A DNA stretch of 64,000 nt from Slackia sp. ZJ119 (lineage in GTDB: Bacteria > Actinomycetota > Coriobacteriia > Coriobacteriales > Eggerthellaceae): the NCBI RefSeq assembly GCF_011039175.1, contig NZ_JAAKEN010000002.1:167680-231679 (forward strand). Direction: 5' to 3'. Made by a program: the position numbers and the translations under genes. This document shows positions 8,445-21,245 of the stretch, piece after piece. Positions within the stretch are counted from its first letter, which is position 1, and the number at the start of each line of letters is the position of its first letter. The notes under the pieces are model-generated. The model had not been told where the DNA came from. It made no database searches and worked only from the letters and a program-made list of their open reading frames with translations.

Positions 8445-8757
8445 GAGTCCTCCGTCTTCGCAGTTCGTAGGGTCATGGTAGCGCAACTTGCCCGGCCGCC
8501 GCCGTCTGCGGAAGGAAAAGGCCGTCCCAACCCACTCGGCGGCGGTAGACGCGGCGGCGCCGCTAGAACAGCAGGGGGAGCAGAAGAGGTCGAAGGGCAG
8601 CGGGGGGCGGCAGGCAGGGACGAAAAGCCGAACCGGAGAAGAGCCTGAAAACGAGTAAAACTCATTGCAGTTCGGAGCACCAGAACCAAACAGATCCACA
8701 AGGATTTCCATAGCGATTTCTCCATCGTTTCCCCGAAGCGCAAACGCAGCCAAAGCC
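8445..8757. other. 313-bp region between iorA and the CRISPR trailer
   Basis: No gene or repeat was identified. It should contain the iorA promoter and the end of the CRISPR transcript. Confidence 0.55.
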
Positions 8758-8854
8758 ACTTCAACCCACGTCTTTCCGCAGGAAAGACGCTTGTGTGCTC
8801 CCAGTGCACACAGATGCCTTCGTTTCGATCCGCATTCCCATTGCGCGGATCCGG
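8758..8854 (-). repeat. two degenerate, leader-distal CRISPR repeats with rewritten stems
   Basis: Units at 8758-8790 and 8822-8854 sit 64 and 68 bp apart, in register with the array. The first keeps TTCAACCCACG and then has TCTTTCC-GCA-GGAAAGA, so the hairpin is fully paired although most stem bases differ from the consensus. The second keeps GTTTC at one end and has GATCCGC/GCGGATC as its stem. Between them TGTGTGC/GCACACA (8792-8812) forms another 7-bp hairpin. Confidence 0.75.
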
Positions 8855-8889: not shown

Positions 8890-10737
8890 GTTTCAACCCA
8901 CGCTCCCCTTGCGGGGAGCGACTGCGTCGTCGATGCCTTCCACCGCGTCGATGTAGTTTCAACCCACGCTCCCCTTGCGGGGAGCGACAGACGCAAGCTT
9001 TTCGTGCGAGGTCGGAAACGTCGGTTTCAACCCACGCTCCCCTTGCGGGGAGCGACTCAAATGGCCCTTGAACGTCCGGCCCGAAACGGGTTTCAACCCA
9101 CGCTCCCCTTGCGGGGAGCGACCTGCAGCCGCCGACGTCGCTTCCGCACGTCGACTCGTTTCAACCCACGCTCCCCTTGCGGGGAGCGACTTTCATCTTT
9201 ATGCGTATGGTACTACGCAGACGAGTTTCAACCCACGCTCCCCTTGCGGGGAGCGACAGCAATGGGAAACCGGAAAGCGTAACCCTAACGCCGTTTCAAC
9301 CCACGCTCCCCTTGCGGGGAGCGACGCGCCTGCGGGGCTTGTGACGTCGCTTCAGGATAGTTTCAACCCACGCTCCCCTTGCGGGGAGCGACCAGCCCTG
9401 ACGATTTCGGCTACGGTAGATCCGCTGTTTCAACCCACGCTCCCCTTGCGGGGAGCGACGAAAACATGACGCCGGAGGAATACGCCGCTTGGTTTCAACC
9501 CACGCTCCCCTTGCGGGGAGCGACCAAGGAGCACCGGGCGAGGGACGGCGAAATACAAGTTTCAACCCACGCTCCCCTTGCGGGGAGCGACTTTGGTAGC
9601 GCATACGATGCTTTGATGCAAACCGTTTCAACCCACGCTCCCCTTGCGGGGAGCGACGAACCGGCTTTGTGCCGTGGGATGACGTGACCAAGTTTCAACC
9701 CACGCTCCCCTTGCGGGGAGCGACGGTGGAGACTACCGGCGACAATATCAAGCTGAGCAGTTTCAACCCACGCTCCCCTTGCGGGGAGCGACTCCTCGTG
9801 CAAAAACATTTCAAAGCTGTAAAGGTGGTTTCAACCCACGCTCCCCTTGCGGGGAGCGACATCGTCAGATGATTTGCCTTACGTTACAGCAATAGTTTCA
9901 ACCCACGCTCCCCTTGCGGGGAGCGACGGCTTTGAGTGTTACGAGCCGATTTTCAACGGTGTTTCAACCCACGCTCCCCTTGCGGGGAGCGACGTCCCAC
10001 TCCGGGCTGTAGTTTTGCAGTTCCCCGTTTCAACCCACGCTCCCCTTGCGGGGAGCGACCGATCAGCGCAATAAAGGCGGCAATCATCGCGTGGTTTCAA
10101 CCCACGCTCCCCTTGCGGGGAGCGACTCCTGCGGGGTCATCGGCCAGCCTCCAGAAGCTCGTTTCAACCCACGCTCCCCTTGCGGGGAGCGACCAACCTG
10201 CGCAACTCCTGGCGCACCTTTTGCAAGGTCGTTTCAACCCACGCTCCCCTTGCGGGGAGCGACAGCAAGCATTGATCATGCTTTCACGCTATAAGCTTGT
10301 TTCAACCCACGCTCCCCTTGCGGGGAGCGACCCGCATGGATAGGACCGCTCGTACACGCCCTTGGCGTTTCAACCCACGCTCCCCTTGCGGGGAGCGACC
10401 GCGAAGAGCCGCGGGCTCGCGTGCGACAGTTTGTTTCAACCCACGCTCCCCTTGCGGGGAGCGACCCGACCGGCAGACCGGCCAGAGAAGGACGAAGCTG
10501 TTTCAACCCACGCTCCCCTTGCGGGGAGCGACGAGATCAAGGCACCGCTGCAACGCATGATGCGCGAGTTTCAACCCACGCTCCCCTTGCGGGGAGCGAC
10601 TAAAAATAAGACCAGACGATTTGCGCGAGTACCTTGTTTCAACCCACGCTCCCCTTGCGGGGAGCGACTTTCAATGCCGTAAAGAATTTCATCACTACGA
10701 CGTGGTTTCAACCCACGCTCCCCTTGCGGGGAGCGAC
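8890..10737 (-). CRISPR. type I-C CRISPR array, 28 repeats, 27 spacers
   Basis: Twenty-eight copies of a 33-bp repeat were counted, beginning GTTTCAACCCACGC and ending GGGGAGCGAC on the plus strand, starting at 8890 and last starting at 10705. By eye all are identical. Spacers are 32-37 bp. The repeat stem is CGCTCCCC/GGGGAGCG with a GCAA loop, and the transcribed strand ends GTTGAAAC, as in type I-C. Transcription should be leftward from the leader beside cas2, so the newest spacers are at the right end. Apparent proteins rich in NPRSPCGER or THAPLAGSD are translations of the repeat. Confidence 0.99.
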
Positions 10738-10965: not shown

Positions 10966-11256
10966 TCAGAACGAAATAAATCCCTCGGCCTCATAGCTTG
11001 CTTTTGCGCCAATATGTTCGATCTTACCCTGGTAATTGTTCCCCATCGAATAAAGCCGCAAGCTATCTTTCTCGGGATCTATCAGGCCCAAAAGTTCTTC
11101 CCTGATGTGCGCCATCGTCGCCGCGTCGGCCACGCATTCGAATACGGAATTTTGCACGCGCTGACCATAGTTGACGCAGTGTTTTGCGACTTTTCTCAGA
11201 CGCTTCCGACCGGCGGCATCCTCGGTATTCACATCGTACGTTATCACGGTCAACAT
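10966..11256 (-). CDS. cas2: CRISPR-associated endoribonuclease/adaptation protein Cas2
   Basis: The 96-aa protein starts MLTVITYDVNTEDAAGRKRL, the ferredoxin-fold beta strand and conserved Asp of Cas2, and continues with the NYGQRVQNSVFEC core motif. Cas2 bridges Cas1 dimers during spacer integration. The ATG at 11256 is preceded by GAGGTGTG. A longer frame to 11457 overlaps cas1 and adds non-homologous sequence, so it is rejected. It is the last cas gene before the leader, in the standard I-C order. Confidence 0.95.
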   Translation of the reverse strand: MLTVITYDVNTEDAAGRKRLRKVAKHCVNYGQRVQNSVFECVADAATMAHIREELLGLIDPEKDSLRLYSMGNNYQGKIEHIGAKASYEAEGFISF

Positions 11257-11309
11257 GAAATCACACCTCGTTTCAACCGGCATGTTCGCCAGTCGTCTGA
11301 TCCAAAACC

Positions 11310-12341
11310 TTACTTCCAAAGAAATGGCGGATACGCGTCCAAATCGCCGCGAAGGCACCGAGACAAAAGCAGCGCTTGCACATGAGGAAGCAATCCGCGC
11401 GGAATTTTCTCTTTCAAAAACGGGTGAAGCATTTCTTCGCGTTTGCGATTCTGCCAAGTCTCGAACAGCGTCTTCCTTCCTTTGTCGGTCAGCAGGACTT
11501 CTCCTGTTTCACGCCGTTCGAAATGTTCCGGACCGACTATGCGATTGTTTATCGAGGTCAGCACAAACCTGTCAACGACGACCGGGCGCAGCTCTTCCAT
11601 CAGGTCCAAGGCCAGTGATTTTCGCCCAGGTCTGTCGCAATGCAAAAATCCGACATATGGATCCAGCCCGACACCCTCCAACGCCGCTGCACAGTCCGAC
11701 GCCAAAATGGTATAGAACAGCGAAAGCATCGCATTCACCGGATCGGTCGGAGGCCTGCGCACGCGTCCCCGAAAAGCGAATGTTTCAGTATTTCTCAGAA
11801 CAAGCTGGTCGAACACTTCAAAATACGTGGCAGCCGCTTCACCTTCAATGCCACGCACGCTCTCGATGGAACTGCAGTTCTTTATTCGCGTCAAAGACGA
11901 CTTCAATTTTCCCGACGCACGGCCAACGGCGTCGGCATCTATACGCAAACCATGGTCGCGAAGAGCCCGTTCAAGCACCCATCGCCCGTTGTATATTTTG
12001 CCAATGATGAAATTTTTCGAGAGCGGGAGACTTTTCTCGCAACTCTCCGACCACGAATACTGCGTTTTTCGAAGCAAAACGTTGCCTTGCTGTGCACCGA
12101 CGGAGCGTGCGAGAAAACGCCCGTGCGGATCGAAAAAAGACAGCGCGACGCCTCTTTCCGCACACGCCCCCATCAATTTCGGGCTGGCCCCTGGATACGA
12201 AAAGCACGTTATGCCCTCAAGCGTGTGCAGCGGCACACGGCCAAGCTCACGCTTGTCCTGCCGAACGACTGCATTTTCACCATCAAGCGCCACGTAGGCA
12301 TCTTCCGTGAAAACATACAGGGTGTTTTTGAGTTGCCGCAT
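11310..12341 (-). CDS. cas1: CRISPR integrase Cas1 (type I-C)
   Basis: The 343-aa protein has the Cas1c form: N-terminal beta domain beginning MRQLKNTLYVFTEDAYVALDGENAVV, then a helical catalytic domain with NAMLSLFYTILASDCAAALEGVGLDPYVGFLH containing the metal-binding Glu and His residues, and the late PVVVDRFVLTSINNRIV stretch. It integrates protospacers at the leader end. The ATG at 12341 overlaps the cas4 stop (TGATG), indicating translational coupling. Length and order are normal for the subtype. Confidence 0.96.
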   Translation of the reverse strand: MRQLKNTLYVFTEDAYVALDGENAVVRQDKRELGRVPLHTLEGITCFSYPGASPKLMGACAERGVALSFFDPHGRFLARSVGAQQGNVLLRKTQYSWSESCEKSLPLSKNFIIGKIYNGRWVLERALRDHGLRIDADAVGRASGKLKSSLTRIKNCSSIESVRGIEGEAAATYFEVFDQLVLRNTETFAFRGRVRRPPTDPVNAMLSLFYTILASDCAAALEGVGLDPYVGFLHCDRPGRKSLALDLMEELRPVVVDRFVLTSINNRIVGPEHFERRETGEVLLTDKGRKTLFETWQNRKREEMLHPFLKEKIPRGLLPHVQALLLSRCLRGDLDAYPPFLWK

Positions 12342-12997
12342 CAATCCTCCCGCAATCGTCGACGAACATACGCTTCAACGGTTTCTCGCTCGAAAGACGC
12401 TGGCAAGCACATATCCTGCAGCGAACAGGACCGACACGCGTTTCGGCGTTTCGAATGCGGGGTACGTCCCCGCACGTACAGATCATGCATCTCGCGGGCG
12501 GCATCGCGCACCGCGCCACGCAGCTCAGAAGTCACGTTCACCGGTTCGCGCGAATGGGTCTTCCCGTAGTAAAGAAACCCTTCAGAAATTTCACAGCACA
12601 GCATCTCTTCCAGGCACATCGCCTGTGCGCATAATTGCATTCTGTCAGCGTCGTGAAATTTTGCTTTGCCGCGCTTGTATTCCACGGGCACAGCGCTCCA
12701 TAGGCCCTCTTCATCAGCAAGGAAAAATCCCACCTCGGTGCGATGAAACTCGACGACATCGCAGACGCCTGCCAGCCCGAGCTCATGCGAATGCACCCGC
12801 AGCCCTCGAACAACGATCGTGTCGCCCCTGCGCTCGCGAATGCTTCCATCGTGGGCGCAAGCATGCATAAGCGACCCCTGAACAGTAAGAACGTTTTCGC
12901 TCCACTGCTGCTCAAGATGGATGAGGGCCCACTGACGTCGACAAAAGGCAAAATGCTGGATGCCGGAGAGAGCGAGAAATTCGTCTTCGGGATACAT
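12341..12997 (-). CDS. cas4: CRISPR-associated exonuclease Cas4
   Basis: The 218-aa protein begins MYPEDEFLALSGIQHFAFCRRQWALIH and has the RecB-like nuclease pattern (GVCDVVEF then VPVEYKRGKAK) and a C-terminal cysteine cluster CRSCSLQDMC that, with the early CRRQW cysteine, would hold an iron-sulfur cluster. In type I-C, Cas4 joins Cas1-Cas2 to select and trim PAM-containing prespacers. It sits between cas7 and cas1 and is coupled to cas1. Confidence 0.95.
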   Translation of the reverse strand: MYPEDEFLALSGIQHFAFCRRQWALIHLEQQWSENVLTVQGSLMHACAHDGSIRERRGDTIVVRGLRVHSHELGLAGVCDVVEFHRTEVGFFLADEEGLWSAVPVEYKRGKAKFHDADRMQLCAQAMCLEEMLCCEISEGFLYYGKTHSREPVNVTSELRGAVRDAAREMHDLYVRGRTPHSKRRNACRSCSLQDMCLPASFERETVEAYVRRRLRED

Positions 12998-13059: not shown

Positions 13060-13950
13060 TTACTGCCATTCCAACAGCTCAACGCCTTCCGGCAGCTCCC
13101 CAACCTCCACGCGGTAGTCGTCGAAGGCGCGGGGCTCGACGTCCTCGTCCACGCGCTTGACCTTGACAGCGTCAAACAGCTTGTAAGCAGGCGCGTTGCC
13201 CAGCTTGCTTTCATGCTTGAAAACGAACAGTTTGCGCGACGTCATAAGCCCGTGAGAAGCGCTGCGATCATTCTCGAACATGTTCATAAGCGCTTCGAAG
13301 AGAAGGTCGAGGTCGGCTTGGCTAAATCCGGTCTTTTCTGCAAGAGCGGCGGAAATGAAGCCTTCGGCGCGGTACAGGCCATAGGGAATGTACTGCTTGC
13401 GCCCCATGGTTTTTTCTTTTTCGATGTCCTTTTCATTCGTGACCGCCATGCGCGTGATGCTCATGTCCAGAGGCAGAACGGGATCGATCGATTCGGCAAA
13501 ACAAAGCTGCACCGGTCCGCGAACCTGCCCGCAATTGACTTCCGTCGTCATGACGGCGCCAAAAGTGCGGATATCGAAGAAATTATCGCACATGAATCGC
13601 GTGACCTTGCGCTGGTCCTCTTTGTCCTTCGGAAGCTTTTTTTGAGTCGACTTGAGATCGTGGTGGATGTACGCCTTCTTGTTTCTGCTGTTCAGCACCG
13701 CCGCTTCTTGAACGTAGATCTTGTAACCCTGTTCGCCTTCGGACGCGTCGGGATCATCAAGGTCTTCGCCTTTCACCAGGTCGACGTAGTTTCGAATTTT
13801 GCGCTTCAGGCACACGTCAGACACGATGCCCTTGCTTGTCGAAGGGTCGATTCTCGGCATATTTCCCGCATCCGGGTCACCGTTGGGGTTGCCATTTTTC
13901 ACGTCGAACAACAGGACGAAGTCGTATCGATTGGAAATGGGCTCGCTCAT
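13060..13950 (-). CDS. cas7: Cascade backbone protein Cas7 (Csd2)
   Basis: The 296-aa protein begins MSEPISNRYDFVLLFDVKNGNPNGDPDAGNMPR, the hallmark of Csd2/Cas7c, and contains VRGPVQLCFAESIDPVLPLDMSITR and the G-rich fork region. Multiple copies line the crRNA spacer in the type I-C effector. AGGAGAAC precedes the ATG. It is 9 bp downstream of cas8c. Confidence 0.96.
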   Translation of the reverse strand: MSEPISNRYDFVLLFDVKNGNPNGDPDAGNMPRIDPSTSKGIVSDVCLKRKIRNYVDLVKGEDLDDPDASEGEQGYKIYVQEAAVLNSRNKKAYIHHDLKSTQKKLPKDKEDQRKVTRFMCDNFFDIRTFGAVMTTEVNCGQVRGPVQLCFAESIDPVLPLDMSITRMAVTNEKDIEKEKTMGRKQYIPYGLYRAEGFISAALAEKTGFSQADLDLLFEALMNMFENDRSASHGLMTSRKLFVFKHESKLGNAPAYKLFDAVKVKRVDEDVEPRAFDDYRVEVGELPEGVELLEWQ

Positions 13951-13959
13951 GATGTTCTC

Positions 13960-15768
13960 CTATTCTTCTTCAAGGTTGCCGTTTTGATCCACTGTCTCAT
14001 CGGCCGGAGGGTTGTCTTTTGATTTCTTTTTCCACAAGTCAGCCCTCTGTTGATAATAGCCAACGATAAATTCTCCTTGCTGTTCAGAACTCAGCGAACG
14101 GGGAAAAGAAACGTCATCGTTCAGCAGGTCCATTATTTCTTCGGCGTTTTTTTCGAGAAAATTGCACAGACCCGAATTCGCCTTGCGAATTTTCGCCAGA
14201 TGGTTCTGCATGTTCAAAAGCAAGTGCGGCATGACACGCGCAGGGGTGGTTGCCGCGCCCCCGATGTAGCGGTCGCGCACCGATGCGTTCACATCCCCAA
14301 TTGCCGCACCTTGAGCACGCTCGATGACGGCAAACAACCGTCCCAGCACGTATCCTTGGTCCGTTCGATCCCTGTTCAGGCTCATCGACAAACCCCTTTC
14401 TTCTCGTCCCATGATTCGGTCTTTGCGCACGAGACACGCCTTCAGCAAAGCCGCCCTTTTTCCCAGATCAAACTTGTCGTTGCCCGCCTGGTCAGAACGG
14501 GTCCTCGAAAGCAGCAGATGGAACAGGGCCGATGGAAACGCGCACCCCGTCAGCATTGAAGCAAAACATCCGTTGACCAGGGTCGATGGAATGTTTTCCT
14601 CTTTCCCCAGCTGGGCCGTTTGCTGCAGAAGCACTCGCAACGAAGTGGTCCGAACGCCGTCCATCGCGACATCTTGCAAGTATTGGTCATAATTTTCGAG
14701 AATCCGCCCGAACGTCTCGACCTCGAAAAAACGCACTGCAAGCCGCGCTGCGTTAGGTGAAATTCCCAGCAGATAAAAGCGCGTTTCGAGATCATATTCC
14801 TCGACCGACCTGCCCGATCGAATGTTTTCAAGCGTCTTGCGAAGCTGCTGAACTTCCTCGCCTTCTTCCGCCCTTTCCGATGCCGGAACGTCTGGGATGC
14901 TCACGCCTCCAAAAACGATCCCCACCGCTGCGTTTTCTTTTTCGGCAGGCCTGTCGGTCCAAAACAAGACCATCGTGTCCCCAAAACGCACCCGATGATC
15001 GAGACTGCCGTACAAATAGCGAAGCGCAGCACCCGCATTCGAGGCGACCTCCTCTGACAGCGAGGCGTTGTACGACTGCCTTTTTCCGTAAGATTCGAAT
15101 GCGTCAAGATTGAAAGACACGAGCGAAGCACCGGCCGACTGCGCACCTGGAACGCCAGTGACCTGGGGAAACAGCCGCGCAAGAGGCGCATGCTCCCCCG
15201 TGATGGAGCAATGTCCCCATACGGCATCGGGATTCGGCCGGGCGGAATGCCGCATCCAAGCCTGTGCAACTTCAGGACGTTCGTGAACAAAGCCCCTTTG
15301 CCCTTCAAGGCCGAACGCGACAAAGCCCTGCGCCTCGTGCAATTTTTCCGCCGTGCCCTCCGGCAAGTGCGCATCAAAGTCATCGCGATCGAAAAACCGA
15401 AGGACCGCCAAGGCGCCCTCGTCGCAGCACTCTTTCAGAACTTCACGATGAAGCTCGGCCGACGCCTGGCGCTTGCCCACGCCTTTCGCCTCATCATAGC
15501 CAAGCAGATACGCCACGTTGTCGCAGAGGAAAAACGGCAAAAAGCCTGATCCTGATCGTGTTTGATGTTCCGGAACGCGAATTACCTTGAAATCGCGCGT
15601 CTTTTTCCCATCGTCGGTCATCAGAGGATCGGCGCCGACCAGCATCCCGTCCCGATCGAGAATCAATCTCCAGCCGACTTTTTCCTTGCCCCAAAATCGT
15701 GCAGGCACGTCGCAATCGGGATCCTTGACCAGGCGCTCATAATATCGATGCAATTCCTGGACGATCAT
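13960..15768 (-). CDS. cas8c: Cascade large subunit Cas8c (Csd1)
   Basis: The 602-aa protein has Csd1 features: MIVQELHRYYERL at the start, GWRLILDRDGMLVG, the WGHCSITGEHAPLARLFPQVTGV and SFNLDAFESYG blocks and the middle DTMVLFWTD stretch. Cas8c recognises the PAM and, in type I-C, an internal start in this gene usually also supplies the small subunit Cas11; no separate cas11 is seen here. The start overlaps the cas5 stop by 4 bp (ATGA). Confidence 0.95.
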   Translation of the reverse strand: MIVQELHRYYERLVKDPDCDVPARFWGKEKVGWRLILDRDGMLVGADPLMTDDGKKTRDFKVIRVPEHQTRSGSGFLPFFLCDNVAYLLGYDEAKGVGKRQASAELHREVLKECCDEGALAVLRFFDRDDFDAHLPEGTAEKLHEAQGFVAFGLEGQRGFVHERPEVAQAWMRHSARPNPDAVWGHCSITGEHAPLARLFPQVTGVPGAQSAGASLVSFNLDAFESYGKRQSYNASLSEEVASNAGAALRYLYGSLDHRVRFGDTMVLFWTDRPAEKENAAVGIVFGGVSIPDVPASERAEEGEEVQQLRKTLENIRSGRSVEEYDLETRFYLLGISPNAARLAVRFFEVETFGRILENYDQYLQDVAMDGVRTTSLRVLLQQTAQLGKEENIPSTLVNGCFASMLTGCAFPSALFHLLLSRTRSDQAGNDKFDLGKRAALLKACLVRKDRIMGREERGLSMSLNRDRTDQGYVLGRLFAVIERAQGAAIGDVNASVRDRYIGGAATTPARVMPHLLLNMQNHLAKIRKANSGLCNFLEKNAEEIMDLLNDDVSFPRSLSSEQQGEFIVGYYQQRADLWKKKSKDNPPADETVDQNGNLEEE

Positions 15769-16430
15769 CCGATCACCCCCTGCGCGGCACCAGCCACGTC
15801 AATGACGCCGTCCCGCATAACCGCTCGGTAAAACAGCGGCTCCATGTCATGGTCGAAATCGATATCGTACAGCATAAACCCCAGATCACGCTCGCCGCTC
15901 CCCGCATAGAACGACACAGGAGCCGCATCGCCCTCCTCAATAAGCTCGACGACGGCAGGAAATTCGCGACATCCGAGAACCGGCTGGTTGAAACACTGCC
16001 CCTTGCGAAGCCGACGCAGCGCAATGTTGTAGTGCTTTTCCACGGTATCGTCAGGTCCGGCCGAATCGGTCAAATCGAAATGAGCCGCAATCACATACGC
16101 CACGTCTTTGAGATACATCGTCGCCCGCTGCTGCCTATCTTCCGTCGCAACCGTATACAGCTCGCGATCGCTTTTCAGGGCGCCTTTCGCGTTGCGATAG
16201 CTCAACTTGCCGCCAAGCTCGTTGCGGCGAAACGTGTCGAATCGAATCTCGTTGAGCACTTCGATGCTGTCGATGCACCACCGAATCGCCGGCTTCCAAT
16301 AGACGGCTTCTATCAAACCACGCGCCGCCGAAGGCGTGATGCAGTCGTACGACACGCGCTCCGACTTCATCTCCGGACGCGTAAAGCACGCTCGCGGCCC
16401 TTTGACCAGCATTTTTACTCCGTATCCCAT
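15765..16430 (-). CDS. cas5c: pre-crRNA-processing protein Cas5c (Cas5d)
   Basis: The 221-aa protein starts MGYGVKMLVKGPRACFTRPEMKSERVSYDCITPSAARGLIEAVYWKP, the typical Cas5c N-terminus, and ends with the DLGFMLYDIDFDHDMEPLFYRA segment. In type I-C, Cas5 replaces Cas6: it cuts the repeat below its hairpin to leave the 11-nt 5' handle, then caps the handle in Cascade. AGGAGGT precedes the ATG at 16430; upstream extension codons are rejected. It overlaps cas8c by 4 bp. Confidence 0.95.
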   Translation of the reverse strand: MGYGVKMLVKGPRACFTRPEMKSERVSYDCITPSAARGLIEAVYWKPAIRWCIDSIEVLNEIRFDTFRRNELGGKLSYRNAKGALKSDRELYTVATEDRQQRATMYLKDVAYVIAAHFDLTDSAGPDDTVEKHYNIALRRLRKGQCFNQPVLGCREFPAVVELIEEGDAAPVSFYAGSGERDLGFMLYDIDFDHDMEPLFYRAVMRDGVIDVAGAAQGVIG

Positions 16431-16473
16431 GTTACCTCCTCTCTGTGATGGTTTCCCTTGAACAAAGACAACG

Positions 16474-18777
16474 CTACAGTGCAAGAAACTGAGGCTCCTC
16501 CTCTCCCGGCTTGATCAGGCCTACGTCTTCTCGATAGTAATAAGCTACTTGGTATTCTTTCATGAACACCAGCGGATCGAAACGTTTGTCGACAACGCCC
16601 GCTCTTTCGTATTCCCCCACAAGCCACGTGGGCACGCTGACGCTGTACTGCTGCATGCGCGACGTCAAAGAAACCGGATATTCCGCTTGCATAAGATCAT
16701 GCAACGCTTGCCTGCCGCCGCTCTCAAACGGAATGAGAACCGCCGTTGTCGCATCGTCGATAATTTTGTAATCGCAAGCGCACTGCTCAAAGGGAATGTT
16801 TATCAGCTTATTTCCCCTGATAGAACGCGCCGAAAGGGTTTTGAAGATCTCCATGGCGTCCAATTCTTCAGAGCAGTACCGCCGGTCAAAGAATTTCGAT
16901 ATGAGCGTTTCGTCGATGCGGCCTCCATTTTGCTGAATGAGCTCGCGCGAAAAGTGCTTCATATTTTCGAGCCACTTGCTGGTCTTTTTCAATTCCCCGT
17001 CTTGGAACAATTCGAAAACATGCACGACGCCTGCGGCTCTCTTGCCTTCTCGATTGCACCGGCCCGCCGCTTGAACGATGGAGTCCATGCCGGCAAGTTC
17101 GCGATACACCACAGGAAAGTCCACGTCAACGCCCGCTTCGATGAGCTGGGTCGAAACGACCATGCACCGCTCCCCATTCTGCAGGCGCATGCGGATGCGC
17201 TCTATCATATCGCTTCGATGGACCGGCGTCATAAAGGCGCTCAGATGGAAAACGCCTTTTTCGAACGCGGTCTTCGCGCTGTCGATTTCGCCTTCCGCGG
17301 CCAGCCTCTCTGCCAACCTGTCATAGACGAGCCGTGCGCCGCCCTTCGTGCCAACGATGCAAAGCACCTGGTCATGTTTGCAAAGATCTTCGATAAGCAA
17401 GTCGGCCTCAACCCCTCCCATCACGTCGTATTCGACACGACCCCCAAAAGCTTCTTGGAATTTCTCCCGGTGTTTGACGATTTCGGCAGGCTCCGAGCCA
17501 AAGGGCCACAAATCATCCAGCACCGGCTGGGTGGCCGTGCACAAGACCACCGTCGTCCGGTAGGCCAGCGTCAACTCTTCAAGCATGGCAAGGGTCGGCA
17601 GCAGCAACGGATCCGGAAGCGTTTGCGCCTCGTCCAAAACAACGACGGATTTTGCGATGCGGTGAATTTTCCGACTTTTCCCCGGCTTCGACGCGAACAG
17701 CGACTCGAACAGCTGCACGTTGGTGGTAACGACCACGGGCGCATCCCAATTCTGCGACGCCAATTTGTAGCTGAGGGCTTCCTCGTCATCGAGTTTTCCA
17801 AAATCGACGTTGCTATGATGCTCAAGAACGTTTTCCGCCCCAAGAATATCGCGCAGAACCTGGGCCGTCTGAGACGTGATGCTCGTAAAAGGGATGGCAA
17901 CGATCACGCGATCGAGGTCGTGTTTGCGTGCGTGCTTGAGGGCAAAAGCCAGCGAAGAAAGCGTTTTGCCACCGCCCGTCGGCACCGTAAGCGTGAAAAG
18001 CCCCTGTTCAAGCCGCGACGCCACAACGCAATCCGTCAAAACGTCTTGGCGGGCGGCATTGACCGGCGTGTCCGCCGAGCGCTTGCCAGCCAAAAAAGCG
18101 TCGAGCCGTTCATCAAGTTCTGCAATTGAGGCGAGGCGCCGGCCCTCGCGTGCGCCATAGACGTTCGGCGACATGAAGCGCTCCGTGTCGAGGTAGTCCG
18201 CGTCGGTGAGGCATGAGTACAGCATGCGATCCAACACGTAAACCGAGAAATAGGCGTCGGCCTCAAGGTTCTTGGATGGAAACCTGCGGGAAGGGACCGA
18301 AGGCCACGCCACATGCCCCAGATCCTCTGCCGCCGGAAGCACAAGTTCCCCTGATTCGACAAGGTCAAAAAACCCATCGTACGGCTCAATGTCGCCCTCG
18401 AGCCTGTCTTGAAGAGGGGTTCGCCTTTCACTCCGCAATCCGTGCGTGCGCGGGATCCCGTTCGGCAAACCCCCGTGATGGCCGGCAAGGGAATACGCCA
18501 ACAGCTGACCAGCAGGCCCGTAGCGCTTAACCGCCTCGCAAGCGCCGGCCGTGGCGTGATCGACCCTTTCCGAAGAGCCGGCAAGCCTTGCTTGGAAAAG
18601 GTCTGAGGCCTTCCCCGCATCATGAAGAAGACCCAGCACGCGCCCATACGAGCCCATGCCGAATGCGGACGCAAAGCACTCCGCTCGATCTGCGACGTTG
18701 TTCAAGTGGTCGGCCAGCGTTTGCCACCGAGAACGGTCGGCAGAATGCTCGCTGTCGGTGTGGGCGTAGAGCGTCAT
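16474..18777 (-). CDS. cas3: CRISPR-associated helicase-nuclease Cas3
   Basis: The 767-aa protein has an N-terminal HD nuclease domain (LLHDAGKAS with His52-Asp53, then AGHHGG) and a superfamily-2 helicase: Walker A VPTGGGKTLSSLAF, the DEAQ box VVVLDEAQTLP, SATQ-like CTATQPVLDD and the motif VI region QAAGRCNREGKR. It unwinds and degrades DNA bound by Cascade. It is first in the cas operon, 43 bp upstream of cas5. AAGGAGAAGCG precedes its ATG. Its promoter region has the guide-RNA-like element described separately. Confidence 0.97.
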   Translation of the reverse strand: MTLYAHTDSEHSADRSRWQTLADHLNNVADRAECFASAFGMGSYGRVLGLLHDAGKASDLFQARLAGSSERVDHATAGACEAVKRYGPAGQLLAYSLAGHHGGLPNGIPRTHGLRSERRTPLQDRLEGDIEPYDGFFDLVESGELVLPAAEDLGHVAWPSVPSRRFPSKNLEADAYFSVYVLDRMLYSCLTDADYLDTERFMSPNVYGAREGRRLASIAELDERLDAFLAGKRSADTPVNAARQDVLTDCVVASRLEQGLFTLTVPTGGGKTLSSLAFALKHARKHDLDRVIVAIPFTSITSQTAQVLRDILGAENVLEHHSNVDFGKLDDEEALSYKLASQNWDAPVVVTTNVQLFESLFASKPGKSRKIHRIAKSVVVLDEAQTLPDPLLLPTLAMLEELTLAYRTTVVLCTATQPVLDDLWPFGSEPAEIVKHREKFQEAFGGRVEYDVMGGVEADLLIEDLCKHDQVLCIVGTKGGARLVYDRLAERLAAEGEIDSAKTAFEKGVFHLSAFMTPVHRSDMIERIRMRLQNGERCMVVSTQLIEAGVDVDFPVVYRELAGMDSIVQAAGRCNREGKRAAGVVHVFELFQDGELKKTSKWLENMKHFSRELIQQNGGRIDETLISKFFDRRYCSEELDAMEIFKTLSARSIRGNKLINIPFEQCACDYKIIDDATTAVLIPFESGGRQALHDLMQAEYPVSLTSRMQQYSVSVPTWLVGEYERAGVVDKRFDPLVFMKEYQVAYYYREDVGLIKPGEEEPQFLAL

Positions 18778-18833
18778 GTTCGCTTCTCCTTGATTGCTGG
18801 TTAGTCGCTGAGCCTTCGGTTCGCCACGATGCG

Positions 18834-18862
18834 ATTATAGGCTTGTCTTTTCTGCTTGTCTA
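18834..18862 (-). promoter_or_regulatory. cas operon promoter
   Basis: On the minus strand TAGACA (18862-18857) and a perfect TATAAT (18839-18834) are separated by 17 bp, upstream of the cas3 ATG at 18777. This is the only strong sigma70-like promoter seen between the hairpin at 18905 and cas3. Confidence 0.8.
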
Positions 18863-18870
18863 TAAGAATA

Positions 18871-18887
18871 TTCAAAATAATTTAGGT
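18871..18887 (+). promoter_or_regulatory. putative Cascade target (PAM plus 14-nt seed match) at the cas3 promoter
   Basis: TTC at 18871-18873 is followed by AAAATAATTTAGGT (18874-18887), which is identical to the first 14 nt of the spacer-like part of the adjacent repeat-like RNA. TTC is the PAM known for type I-C systems. The site ends 9 bp from the -35 box on its PAM side, so bound Cascade would crowd RNA polymerase. Pairing stops after 14 nt, which should permit binding but not interference. Confidence 0.7.
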
Positions 18888-18904
18888 TAAAATTAGCTCC
18901 TGAT

Positions 18905-18938
18905 AAGGAAAGGCCGGCAAGTCTGCCGGCCTTTCCTT
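18905..18938. terminator. perfect 15-bp hairpin at the end of the CreR-like RNA
   Basis: AAGGAAAGGCCGGCA (18905-18919) pairs exactly with 18924-18938 around a 4-nt loop. On the minus strand the stem ends CCTTTCCTT, a U-containing but imperfect tract. Its position directly after a 35-nt spacer-length segment suits a terminator for the repeat-like RNA. It could act in both directions. Confidence 0.65.
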
Positions 18939-18996
18939 CGTTCGATGCGCACAGCACCTAAATTATTTTGTTTCAACCCACGCCCCCTCGAGCGAC
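18935..18996 (-). ncRNA. CreR-like guide RNA: degenerate CRISPR repeat plus pseudo-spacer
   Basis: The minus strand of 18996-18970 reads as a CRISPR repeat shortened by 6 nt. Its first seven bases (GTCGCTC) and the 11-nt crRNA handle TGGGTTGAAAC are unchanged, and the middle still folds as CGCTC-GAGG-GGGCG (one U-G pair), so Cas5c could process it. The next 35 nt (18969-18935) form a pseudo-spacer whose first 14 nt match the TTC-flanked site at the cas3 promoter, followed by a strong hairpin. TAGAAT at 19008-19003 would place the RNA start near the repeat. A Cascade-guiding autoregulatory RNA is inferred; expression is not shown. Confidence 0.72.
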
Positions 18997-19002
18997 GGTT
19001 GC

Positions 19003-19081
19003 ATTCTAACAAGACCGAGACGAAACAGACGGGCTCACCATAACAAAACCCTTTGGGCGGTCCTGTACCATAAACGGTACA
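19003..19081 (-). promoter_or_regulatory. putative promoter and upstream dyad for the CreR-like RNA
   Basis: TAGAAT (19008-19003) is a good -10 candidate 6 bp before the repeat-like sequence; the -35 is weak. A dyad TGTACC-N6-GGTACA lies at 19064-19081 about 70 bp upstream and could bind a regulator. Confidence 0.4.
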
Positions 19082-19155
19082 CTTAAATACTTTTTTCGAT
19101 TTTTTCGGACGAGGGAAACGCCGATGGAGGCTGTCGTGGCCTGAGTCAGCTTCCC

Positions 19156-20040
19156 CTATCCCAGCTCTCGCCTCAGATCGGCGCACATGCGGCGGGCTTC
19201 GGACGCGTCGCCGTTTTTCCAGAGCTCTTCGATGACCGCCGCGTTGTTGCGCACGTCGTGACGCGCATGGGCGGCCCGCTCCACCGCGACGGCCGCCTCA
19301 CGGAATTCAGCCATGCAGCTGTCGACCCGCTCTTCCAGCATGCGCGAACGCAGCTCCACCATCCGCCGCCGCGACGAAGCCGCCACAGCGACCACGACCG
19401 CCACGTCGGCCAGCACGAACAGCACGACCACCGCGAGCGAAAACGCCATGATCGGCAGCTGGTCGTTCACCCCGTACAGGATGCGCACGATGAGCGTCAG
19501 GATCGCCAGCTGCACAAGAGGAAACCCAATGAGGCTCGTTGCCGTGAGCGGCATGATGCCGAACTGCTCGCCGCGCAGCAGCCCGACCGCCTCCAAGAAC
19601 CTGCCGAGCAGCGCAAACGCCACCGCCATCAGAATGATGTTGACGGCAACGAGCAGGGTGCATTCCGGCAGATGAGCGAAGGCAACGTCGTAATCCGCAA
19701 TCACCTCGCCGGTCACCAGCATCCACTCCACGCCAAGCGCGAAATCCATGAGCATCATGACGACGCTCGCAAGCAGCGCGATGGTCAAACGACGCCAAAG
19801 CTTGATCTCCCCAAAGAACACGGGCGAAAACGAGACGACCGCCGAAAGAGCGACCCGCTGCCACGAGCCGACTTCCCAGAAAACCAGAATGAGCAGCGCC
19901 GCCGCAAGAATCTGGATCGCCCAGTAGAGCCATTTTCGCTGCACGCCGAAAAACCGGCACAAGGCCCCGGCATATATCACCTGCGCAGGCACCGATCCGA
20001 TCAGCATGACGACCACGTGCTCGAAATCGTATCCGGTCAT
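19156..20040 (-). CDS. membrane sensor protein with H-box but no ATPase domain
   Basis: This 294-aa protein has about six or seven hydrophobic segments (residues 10-220), then a soluble helix ending HARHDVRNNAAVIEELWKNGD, an H-box of the SpoOB/AgrC-like dimerisation type. It stops there, so the HATPase domain normally following is missing. The ATG at 20040 overlaps the stop of the upstream sensor gene (ATGA), so the two are coupled. It may act as the phosphoacceptor or receptor half of a split GHKL kinase, or be a truncated duplicate. No response regulator is adjacent. Confidence 0.6.
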   Translation of the reverse strand: MTGYDFEHVVVMLIGSVPAQVIYAGALCRFFGVQRKWLYWAIQILAAALLILVFWEVGSWQRVALSAVVSFSPVFFGEIKLWRRLTIALLASVVMMLMDFALGVEWMLVTGEVIADYDVAFAHLPECTLLVAVNIILMAVAFALLGRFLEAVGLLRGEQFGIMPLTATSLIGFPLVQLAILTLIVRILYGVNDQLPIMAFSLAVVVLFVLADVAVVVAVAASSRRRMVELRSRMLEERVDSCMAEFREAAVAVERAAHARHDVRNNAAVIEELWKNGDASEARRMCADLRRELG

Positions 20041-21017
20041 CGCCCGCACGCCTCCTTTTGCGGCGAAATGCGCGAAGCGTCGCTGCGAAGCTCGAGCCGC
20101 GTGTCGAAAACGCCCTCGTCGGACGCCGTCGAAAGCGAGCCGCCGTGCCGCGCCGCCAAGCTTCTTAGAATCGACAAGCCCCAGCCATGCTTGGGCATTT
20201 TCGATTCCCTGCCAGGGCGGCCCAAAGCGAACTGTGGCCGAGAAGCACGCTTAAAGTCCTGGTCGGAGCAGCTGTTGCGCATGGCGATCACGAGGGTTTC
20301 GCCATCGTAGGCCGCATCCATCTGAACGAACCGCTCGCCTTCCGCAACGTTTTCGCACGCGTGCATCGCATTGTCGAGCAGGTTGGAGAAAATGCCGCAC
20401 ATCTCGACGTCGGAAAACGGAAGGGCGTCTGGCAAGCGCAGATCGAAGACGGTCGTGACTCCTGCTTTTTGAAACCGCTGCGCTTTTATGCCGACCAGGG
20501 TGTTCACGATCGGGTGTGCGCAATAGCGGGCCTGCGCCTGCAGCGACGCGAGCGCTCCTTTGGCCGGCCCCTGCGCATGCGCGTCGTCTGCCTGCGGGTT
20601 CTTCTCCAACTCGGCCTCAAGCTGCTGCGCCCACTGCCGCAGCGCATCCATGATGGCCTCGGCTTCGTCCAAGTTGCGCCGGGCGCACGCGCGTTGCTGC
20701 TCCTGCTCGTTCAGCACCTGCTCGAGCATGCGGTTTCTCACGCGCTCGCGATCGACCTTTTCGGCTTGCCTCACCATTTGGAGCAGCGCGAAATCGACGG
20801 GGATGCAGCATACGGCGATCGCCAGGACCACGGCCAGCTGCTCGGGCGGCAAGCCGTACTCCGCAATGCATCCCGCCGCGAAAACCAACGCCACGAGCTG
20901 GCTGAACGGGAAAAGAACATATGCGGCCCGCCGGATCCACGGGACTCTGCTCGAAAGCGCGTCGAGCGTAAGCCCGACGCTTCCGCTCGACGTCGCTCGC
21001 ACGTCTGCTTGCGCCAT
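20037..21017 (-). CDS. GHKL-domain sensor histidine kinase-like protein
   Basis: The 326-aa protein has two short hydrophobic segments near residues 35-80, a charged coiled-coil helix, a possible H-box in ARYCAHPIVNTLVGIKAQ, and a C-terminal GHKL ATPase with the N-box FSNLLDNAMHAC and G-box KHGWGLSILRSLAARHGG. This resembles AgrC/natural-product-sensor kinases with a reduced input domain. The start at 21017 follows GAGGTGGGG. It is coupled to the downstream membrane sensor that lacks an ATPase, suggesting the two work as one receptor. Confidence 0.72.
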   Translation of the reverse strand: MAQADVRATSSGSVGLTLDALSSRVPWIRRAAYVLFPFSQLVALVFAAGCIAEYGLPPEQLAVVLAIAVCCIPVDFALLQMVRQAEKVDRERVRNRMLEQVLNEQEQQRACARRNLDEAEAIMDALRQWAQQLEAELEKNPQADDAHAQGPAKGALASLQAQARYCAHPIVNTLVGIKAQRFQKAGVTTVFDLRLPDALPFSDVEMCGIFSNLLDNAMHACENVAEGERFVQMDAAYDGETLVIAMRNSCSDQDFKRASRPQFALGRPGRESKMPKHGWGLSILRSLAARHGGSLSTASDEGVFDTRLELRSDASRISPQKEACGR

Positions 21018-21245
21018 TGCGATCCCCACCTCGATCTATGTGCGCCGCCGGAGCGCAGACCAGAGCTCCGACGCACGTTTTTCGACCCTCCCTGGCACCG
21101 ACGCCGCCGAGGCCTTCCGCCGCGAACCGCATCCTGCTTCTCGTGTCCAAAAACCAGGATGCGGTTCGCTGCGGTCGGCATCGGCGCTTTCGCCTCAGTT
21201 CAGAGAGATGCTGACCAATTTCGTCAGATTTGATCAGTTTCCTCC

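Follow-up and report, generated by a model that had tools for sequence, protein, structure and literature searches.

Standalone crRNA-like repeats are reportedly found beside cas genes, with spacers that partly match cas promoters, a description attributed to Shmakov et al. 2023. Passages of PMC13131331 on the cas-regulating RNAs (CreR) of Liu et al. 2023 name them for subtypes I-B, I-E and V-A, while PMC12737573, in the part concerned, gives them more broadly for 'Type I and Type V-A' and states that repression lifts when the free Cas effector is depleted. The element described here resembles CreR, as presented in these parts of PMC13131331 and PMC12737573, in being repeat-like, in lying at a cas locus, in carrying a guide that partly matches a cas promoter and in its proposed autorepression via the Cas effector. 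It differs from the named systems in belonging to subtype I-C, and its repression is a prediction. A second point of reference is CreA, for which the passages of PMC8501985 on a mutational scan report that positions 1 to 5 and 7 to 11 of the guide are needed and positions 6 and 12 are free. Our element shares with the CreA of CreTA this interrupted seed, the two free positions and the TTC PAM, and with the CreA of H. hispanica, composed of one psi-repeat and a terminator, the one-repeat form (PMC8501985, same passages). However, CreA works in an archaeal I-B system with Cas6 and represses a toxin gene, whereas in our locus the next gene is cas3.

For subtype I-C, parts of PMC10865793 report that both TTC and TTT are PAMs of the Neisseria lactamica system, and that a promoter is repressed when an I-C Cascade without cutting is directed to it beside TTC. 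In Myxococcus xanthus, Cas8c, Cas7 and Cas5 of DevTRS are proposed to repress their own transcript, the mechanism being unknown and no array spacer matching (PMC8616872, in the relevant passages). DevTRS is similar to our locus in the proposed autoregulation of its own transcript, and PMC8616872 calls the system I-C, although this subtype is disputed because the same paper mentions Cas6 and a passage of PMC11237760 says MxI-B; it differs in that these passages of PMC8616872 report no guide of the present kind. Where PMC13131331 turns to 'type I-C', its passages concern only spacer acquisition. The relevant passages of PMC12737573, PMC13131331, PMC12948488, PMC12373910, PMC10651486, PMC8501985, PMC10758571 and PMC8616872 and a wider literature search yielded no CreR for I-C; Shmakov 2023 may list some. 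CreR is an already known kind of RNA and, judging from the sequence, our element would be an I-C example of it with an unusually clear comparative signature.

A solitary repeat at a type I-C locus

The window, that is, the whole stretch of 64,000 nucleotides of Slackia sp. ZJ119 analysed here, hosts on its minus strand an apparently complete subtype I-C system, composed of cas3-cas5c-cas8c-cas7c-cas4-cas1c-cas2 and a CRISPR array (Table 1). The true start of cas2 is probably internal to its ORF, since the Cas2 domain is confined to the residues listed in the table. Past the trailing end of the array, a degenerate repeat beginning with ACTTCAACCCACG lies at positions 8757-8793.

Table 1. Features of the type I-C locus, in window positions
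Feature	Position	Strand	Evidence and remarks
CRISPR array	8890-10737	-	28 repeats of 33 nt GTCGCTCCCCGCAAGGGGAGCGTGGGTTGAAAC; spacers 32-37 nt
ORF with cas2	10966-11457	-	TIGR01573; Cas2 domain at residues 68-158
cas1c	11310-12344	-	TIGR03640
cas4	12341-12997	-	TIGR00372
cas7c	13060-13950	-	TIGR02589
cas8c	13960-15768	-	TIGR01863
cas5c	15765-16484	-	TIGR01876
cas3	16474-18777	-	767 aa; TIGR01587, TIGR01596
Predicted cas3 promoter	18834-18862	-	TAGACA-17-TATAAT; 11/12 consensus; 8 bp from PAM
TTC PAM	18871-18873	+	Sequence
Target	18874-18887	+	Sequence; 14 nt identical to guide start
Perfect 15-bp hairpin, predicted 3' end of guide RNA	18905-18938	-	4-nt loop; guide plus hairpin z -6.2
Pseudo-spacer (guide)	18939-18969	-	31 nt up to hairpin; seed AAAATAATTTAGGT at 18956-18969
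Psi-repeat	18970-18996	-	Sequence; isolated shortened type I-C repeat GTCGCTCGAGGGGGCGTGGGTTGAAAC, intact 11-nt handle TGGGTTGAAAC
Predicted extended -10 of guide RNA	19003-19011	-	TGTTAGAAT; hexamer TAGAAT at 19003-19008, 6 bp before psi-repeat

Upstream of cas3, at the cas locus and outside the array, lies a degenerate repeat with an intact handle (psi-repeat), as in CreR. A first-pass annotation of this DNA had described it as an isolated repeat shortened by 6 nt that keeps GTCGCTC, the 11-nt handle and a stem. All of these elements are present in its 27 nt, as compared with the 33 nt of the array repeat. The stem is weak: folding returns 5 bp and -6.9 kcal/mol for the psi-repeat, versus 8 bp and -17.6 kcal/mol for the array repeat, and the short psi-repeat stem alone is not better than shuffles (z -1.1). 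When the whole genome (2.84 Mb, 40 contigs) was searched for the 14-nt repeat end with at most one mismatch, 29 places were retrieved, namely the 28 array repeats and the psi-repeat, which is the sole copy outside the array; the control with the pattern read backwards gave 1 and 1.

The annotation had also proposed a 35-nt pseudo-spacer ending at a perfect 15-bp hairpin. The hairpin is indeed perfect, while the pseudo-spacer measures 31 nt because the hairpin begins at guide nucleotide 32. No terminator-like site was listed at this hairpin in a terminator scan, and an Rfam search returned one match, which is unrelated and below its gathering score. On the other side of the psi-repeat, the hexamer TAGAAT is found where it had been placed, 6 bp upstream, and TGTTAGAAT presumably fits an extended -10 motif. 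A palindrome, TGTACC-ATAAAC-GGTACA (19064-19081), lies between this predicted guide promoter and a pair of genes upstream. The nearer gene of the pair (19156-20049) has no family above cut-off, and the farther one (20037-21029) encodes a GHKL histidine-kinase domain.

The guide matches a TTC-flanked site at the predicted cas3 promoter

The identity between the first 14 nt of the guide and the target, the TTC that precedes the target and the near-consensus promoter beyond it had all been noticed at first pass, and all three hold; only the gap from TTC to the -35 has to be corrected from 9 to 8 bp. Scanning 18770-19160 returned 1 promoter-like site versus 0.3 expected, and the score of the predicted cas3 promoter was reached by none of 100 Markov controls. 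A distance of 57 bp separates the end of its -10 (18834) from the cas3 start codon (18777), and no start codon of another gene was seen in between. As in CreR, a guide shows a limited match (seed positions 1 to 5 and 7 to 11) to a PAM-flanked site at a predicted cas promoter.

We compared this match with chance expectation. In 20,000 Markov resamplings of the region 18780-19160, the longest TTC-flanked match was 9 nt, versus the 14 nt observed. The segments behind the 28 array repeats reached at most 5 read positions against the TTC sites in 18501-19200. In the entire genome, TTC followed by the seed (positions 1 to 5 and 7 to 11) occurs once, at the target in the window, and the reversed control does not occur at all.

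We consider it very likely that this element is a one-repeat CreR, whose 14-base match 8 bp upstream of the -35 would allow the I-C Cascade to repress cas3-cas5c-cas8c-cas7c. Transcription of the guide RNA would begin close to the psi-repeat's first base, Cas5c would cut the RNA at the handle, leaving a processed form predicted to start with TGGGTTGAAAC-AAAATAATTTAGG, and the 15-bp hairpin would form the 3' end. Cascade loaded with this guide would open from TTC a short partial R-loop that would not suffice to license Cas3 cutting; the bound complex would hinder RNA polymerase at the adjacent -35, so that cas transcription would fall. Whenever crRNAs or anti-CRISPRs withdraw free Cascade, the operon would be derepressed.

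Guide and target pairs recur in other type I-C loci

Cas8c is present in 17 of the 138 genomes of the family, including that of the window. From 15 of the other 16 genomes we extracted 16 regions (G040 was left out as its contig was too short), and we added the best 80 of 383 Cas8c relatives among public genome contigs. Together with the window, and after removal of four duplicates (L061, L062, L071 and L132, equal to L047, L048, L050 and L051), these make 93 unique I-C loci. Two of them, L053 and L060, are fragments of one genome entered as two loci; since the 93 loci include fragments, all survey counts are lower bounds. A fixed rule was applied to all loci, which required a handle with at most one mismatch, ending in GAAAY and with no second handle within 100 bp, and, within 400 bp, a match of 9 or more read positions after any triplet.

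Under this rule we found 126 isolated handles, 30 of them with a nearby match, compared with 1 of 126 when each guide was shuffled once. The triplet before the match is TTC in 26 cases (26 loci), TTT in 2 (L048 and L101) and AAC in 2. Both AAC cases come from L090, which is counted twice because its two element copies match each other, and whose guide scores 13 against TTC. In this locus (L090:2780-2946), the psi-repeat end and the same guide occur twice in tandem, and the second copy adjoins a run of N.

For further analysis we curated a set of 31 guide/target pairs, composed of the window and 30 other I-C loci. L045 and L048 were admitted by total score, and two rule-based matches, L101 (after TTT) and L126 (after TTC), are outside this set. 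The check named beforehand for the window was whether guide and target co-vary beside TTC across related I-C loci, and these 31 pairs, with TTC before 26 of the 30 rule-based matches, display such co-variation.

Most targets lie close to cas3 or cas5

Almost all targets (30 of 31) are located either upstream of cas3 or close to where cas5 starts. Twelve lie 13-448 bp upstream of the extrapolated cas3 start, and all of these 12 loci share the arrangement of the window, in which the guide runs in the direction of the cas genes and the target is inverted. Eighteen are found at -35 to 910 bp relative to the extrapolated cas5 start. Overall, guide and target occupy opposite strands in 24 pairs and the same strand in 7. 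Of the 23 loci with a definable psi-repeat start, 10 have a -10-like hexamer at a spacing of exactly 6 bp upstream of the psi-repeat, while each of the other spacings from 3 to 11 is represented by 0-2 loci (raw counts). In 14 of 31 loci the guide is followed by a perfect hairpin of 10 bp or more and in 10 by one of 5-8 bp, the latter being possibly due to chance; a search for perfect hairpins of 5 bp or more after the guide found none in 7 of the 31. Only in 5 of 31 loci did the consensus promoter at the target do better than resampling (5 or fewer of 100), and promoter consensus was discarded as a general test.

In three loci the target is associated with other genes. L057 (L057:9060-10184) has a guide and a TTC target agreeing at 15 read positions, and 36 bp after the target comes a 337-aa gene that is beside cas2, far from cas3 and cas5, and without NCBIfam or Pfam family above cut-off; this is a possible CrePA-like cargo module. 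In L056 (L056:13543-13870) the target overlies the predicted promoter of the guide itself, and the interval between guide and cas3 holds a 32-codon ORF; this is a possible CreTA-like operon. In L046 (L046:3922-4211) a 76-aa HTH_17 (excisionase-like) gene separates the guide and target from cas3, with the target at its 5' end. The first gene affected in L056 and L057, and perhaps in L046, need not be a cas gene.

These three loci offer hints in favor of a different role for the same guide in the window, namely that of a CreTA/CrePA-type module, repressing a toxin or cargo gene that punishes the loss of Cascade, and not the cas operon. No toxin or cargo gene lies at the targeted promoter of the window, however, where cas3 comes next, and we hold such a role to be very improbable.

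Positions 6 and 12 are spared in the pairing

The number of matches at each guide position reveals an interrupted pattern in the 31 curated pairs. Positions 1 to 5 match in 31, 31, 30, 31 and 31 pairs and positions 7 to 11 in 31, 31, 29, 30 and 31, counts that were raised by the selection of the pairs. Position 6 matches in only 10 pairs and position 12 in 6, and these 16 of 62 matches, close to chance, are unbiased because the selection ignored both positions. Beyond them, matches decrease through 26, 23, 18, 17 and 16 at positions 13 to 17 to 9 at position 18 and 4 to 9 at positions 19 to 30. The same is detectable in the strict TTC set (n = 26), with matches at position 6 in 9 pairs and at position 12 in 3.

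As required of CreR, guides and targets change together across related loci while their sequences differ. Among the 930 combinations of a guide with a foreign target, 3 reach 7 read positions and none exceeds 8. Own pairs range from 7 to 15 read positions, apart from L045, in which a mismatch at position 3 limits the lead to 2. The sparing of positions 6 and 12 would be expected of pairing within Cascade, and not of a recent duplication or an RNA stem. The pair of the window matches at positions 6 and 12 as well, the only one of the 31 to match at both, and for this reason the window taken alone would also be compatible with an inverted duplication.

The pattern also bears on the idea of the 14-nt inverted repeat acting as an RNA stem or as a protein operator (an attenuator or repressor site) unrelated to Cascade. 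Seed and target in the window form an inverted repeat around the 15-bp hairpin, and a read-through transcript could therefore fold the two together. Yet no stem is possible in the 7 pairs with the same orientation, mismatches fall at positions 6 and 12, and the matches begin exactly after the repeat handle on one side and after TTC on the other. A stem or operator of this kind seems to us as improbable as a toxin or cargo module.

Even smaller is the probability that we are dealing with the remnant of a dead CRISPR array, whose matching site would derive from chance or duplication. The missing 6 nt, the weak stem and the patchy presence in the family are what a decaying repeat might show, but handle, seed and TTC are all intact, 30 other loci retain pairs of unrelated sequence, and a chance match of this length was not attained in the 20,000 draws. 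Finally, a solitary-repeat anti-CRISPR RNA (Racr), which blocks Cas proteins without a target, has hardly any probability: solitary I-C repeat mimics do inhibit I-C systems and RacrIC1 is likewise a solitary I-C repeat, but it is an inhibitor carried on a prophage beside an acr gene (PMC10651486, in the passages on RacrIC1), whereas our element lies within the cas locus, directly upstream of an apparently complete host cas operon and, judged by this position, not on a mobile element, and has a guide with a TTC-flanked target.

Implications for subtype I-C

Preferring the one-repeat CreR for the window, we are evenly divided on a broader proposal, according to which subtype I-C, which has no Cas6, possesses its own class of one-repeat CreR. 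In this class, the RNA would start at the psi-repeat, target the head of the cas operon with its seed, and end in a hairpin; it would be found in about one third of the examined loci and at least four phyla, would have been re-invented many times with new letters, and would guard cargo genes in some loci. Subtype I-C, too, likely meters its own Cascade via an RNA guide. If this is true, such a guide could underlie cas autoregulation of unknown mechanism, for example in Myxococcus dev, and the 31 concrete guide/target pairs predict which bases matter. Genome editing has made use of the endogenous I-C system of the Eggerthella lenta type strain (PMC9734109, in the part concerned). As this strain carries one of the pairs (L058, with a psi-repeat that ends at 11021), RNA-guided autoregulation of I-C is directly testable.

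Additional searches

Viral contigs were searched for mimics of two guides, that of the window and that of L058. At least 148 places were retrieved (at least 120 plus 28), 7 of which, among the matches listed, lie within one mismatch of a handle, and none of these 7 is repeat-like by eye.

Within the family, 5 of the 16 genomes yielded no pair (G069, G073, G089, G039 and G001), and a handle-free search upstream of cas3 and cas5 in these loci gave no lead with a handle. The handle-free search for pairs was dominated by array repeats: of its 29,094 pairs, 26 had a GAAAY handle, including one from L117 and two from L139 that are array sequence and were rejected as CreR candidates. In L139 (L139:15518-15604), two adjacent array spacers start as reverse complements of each other.
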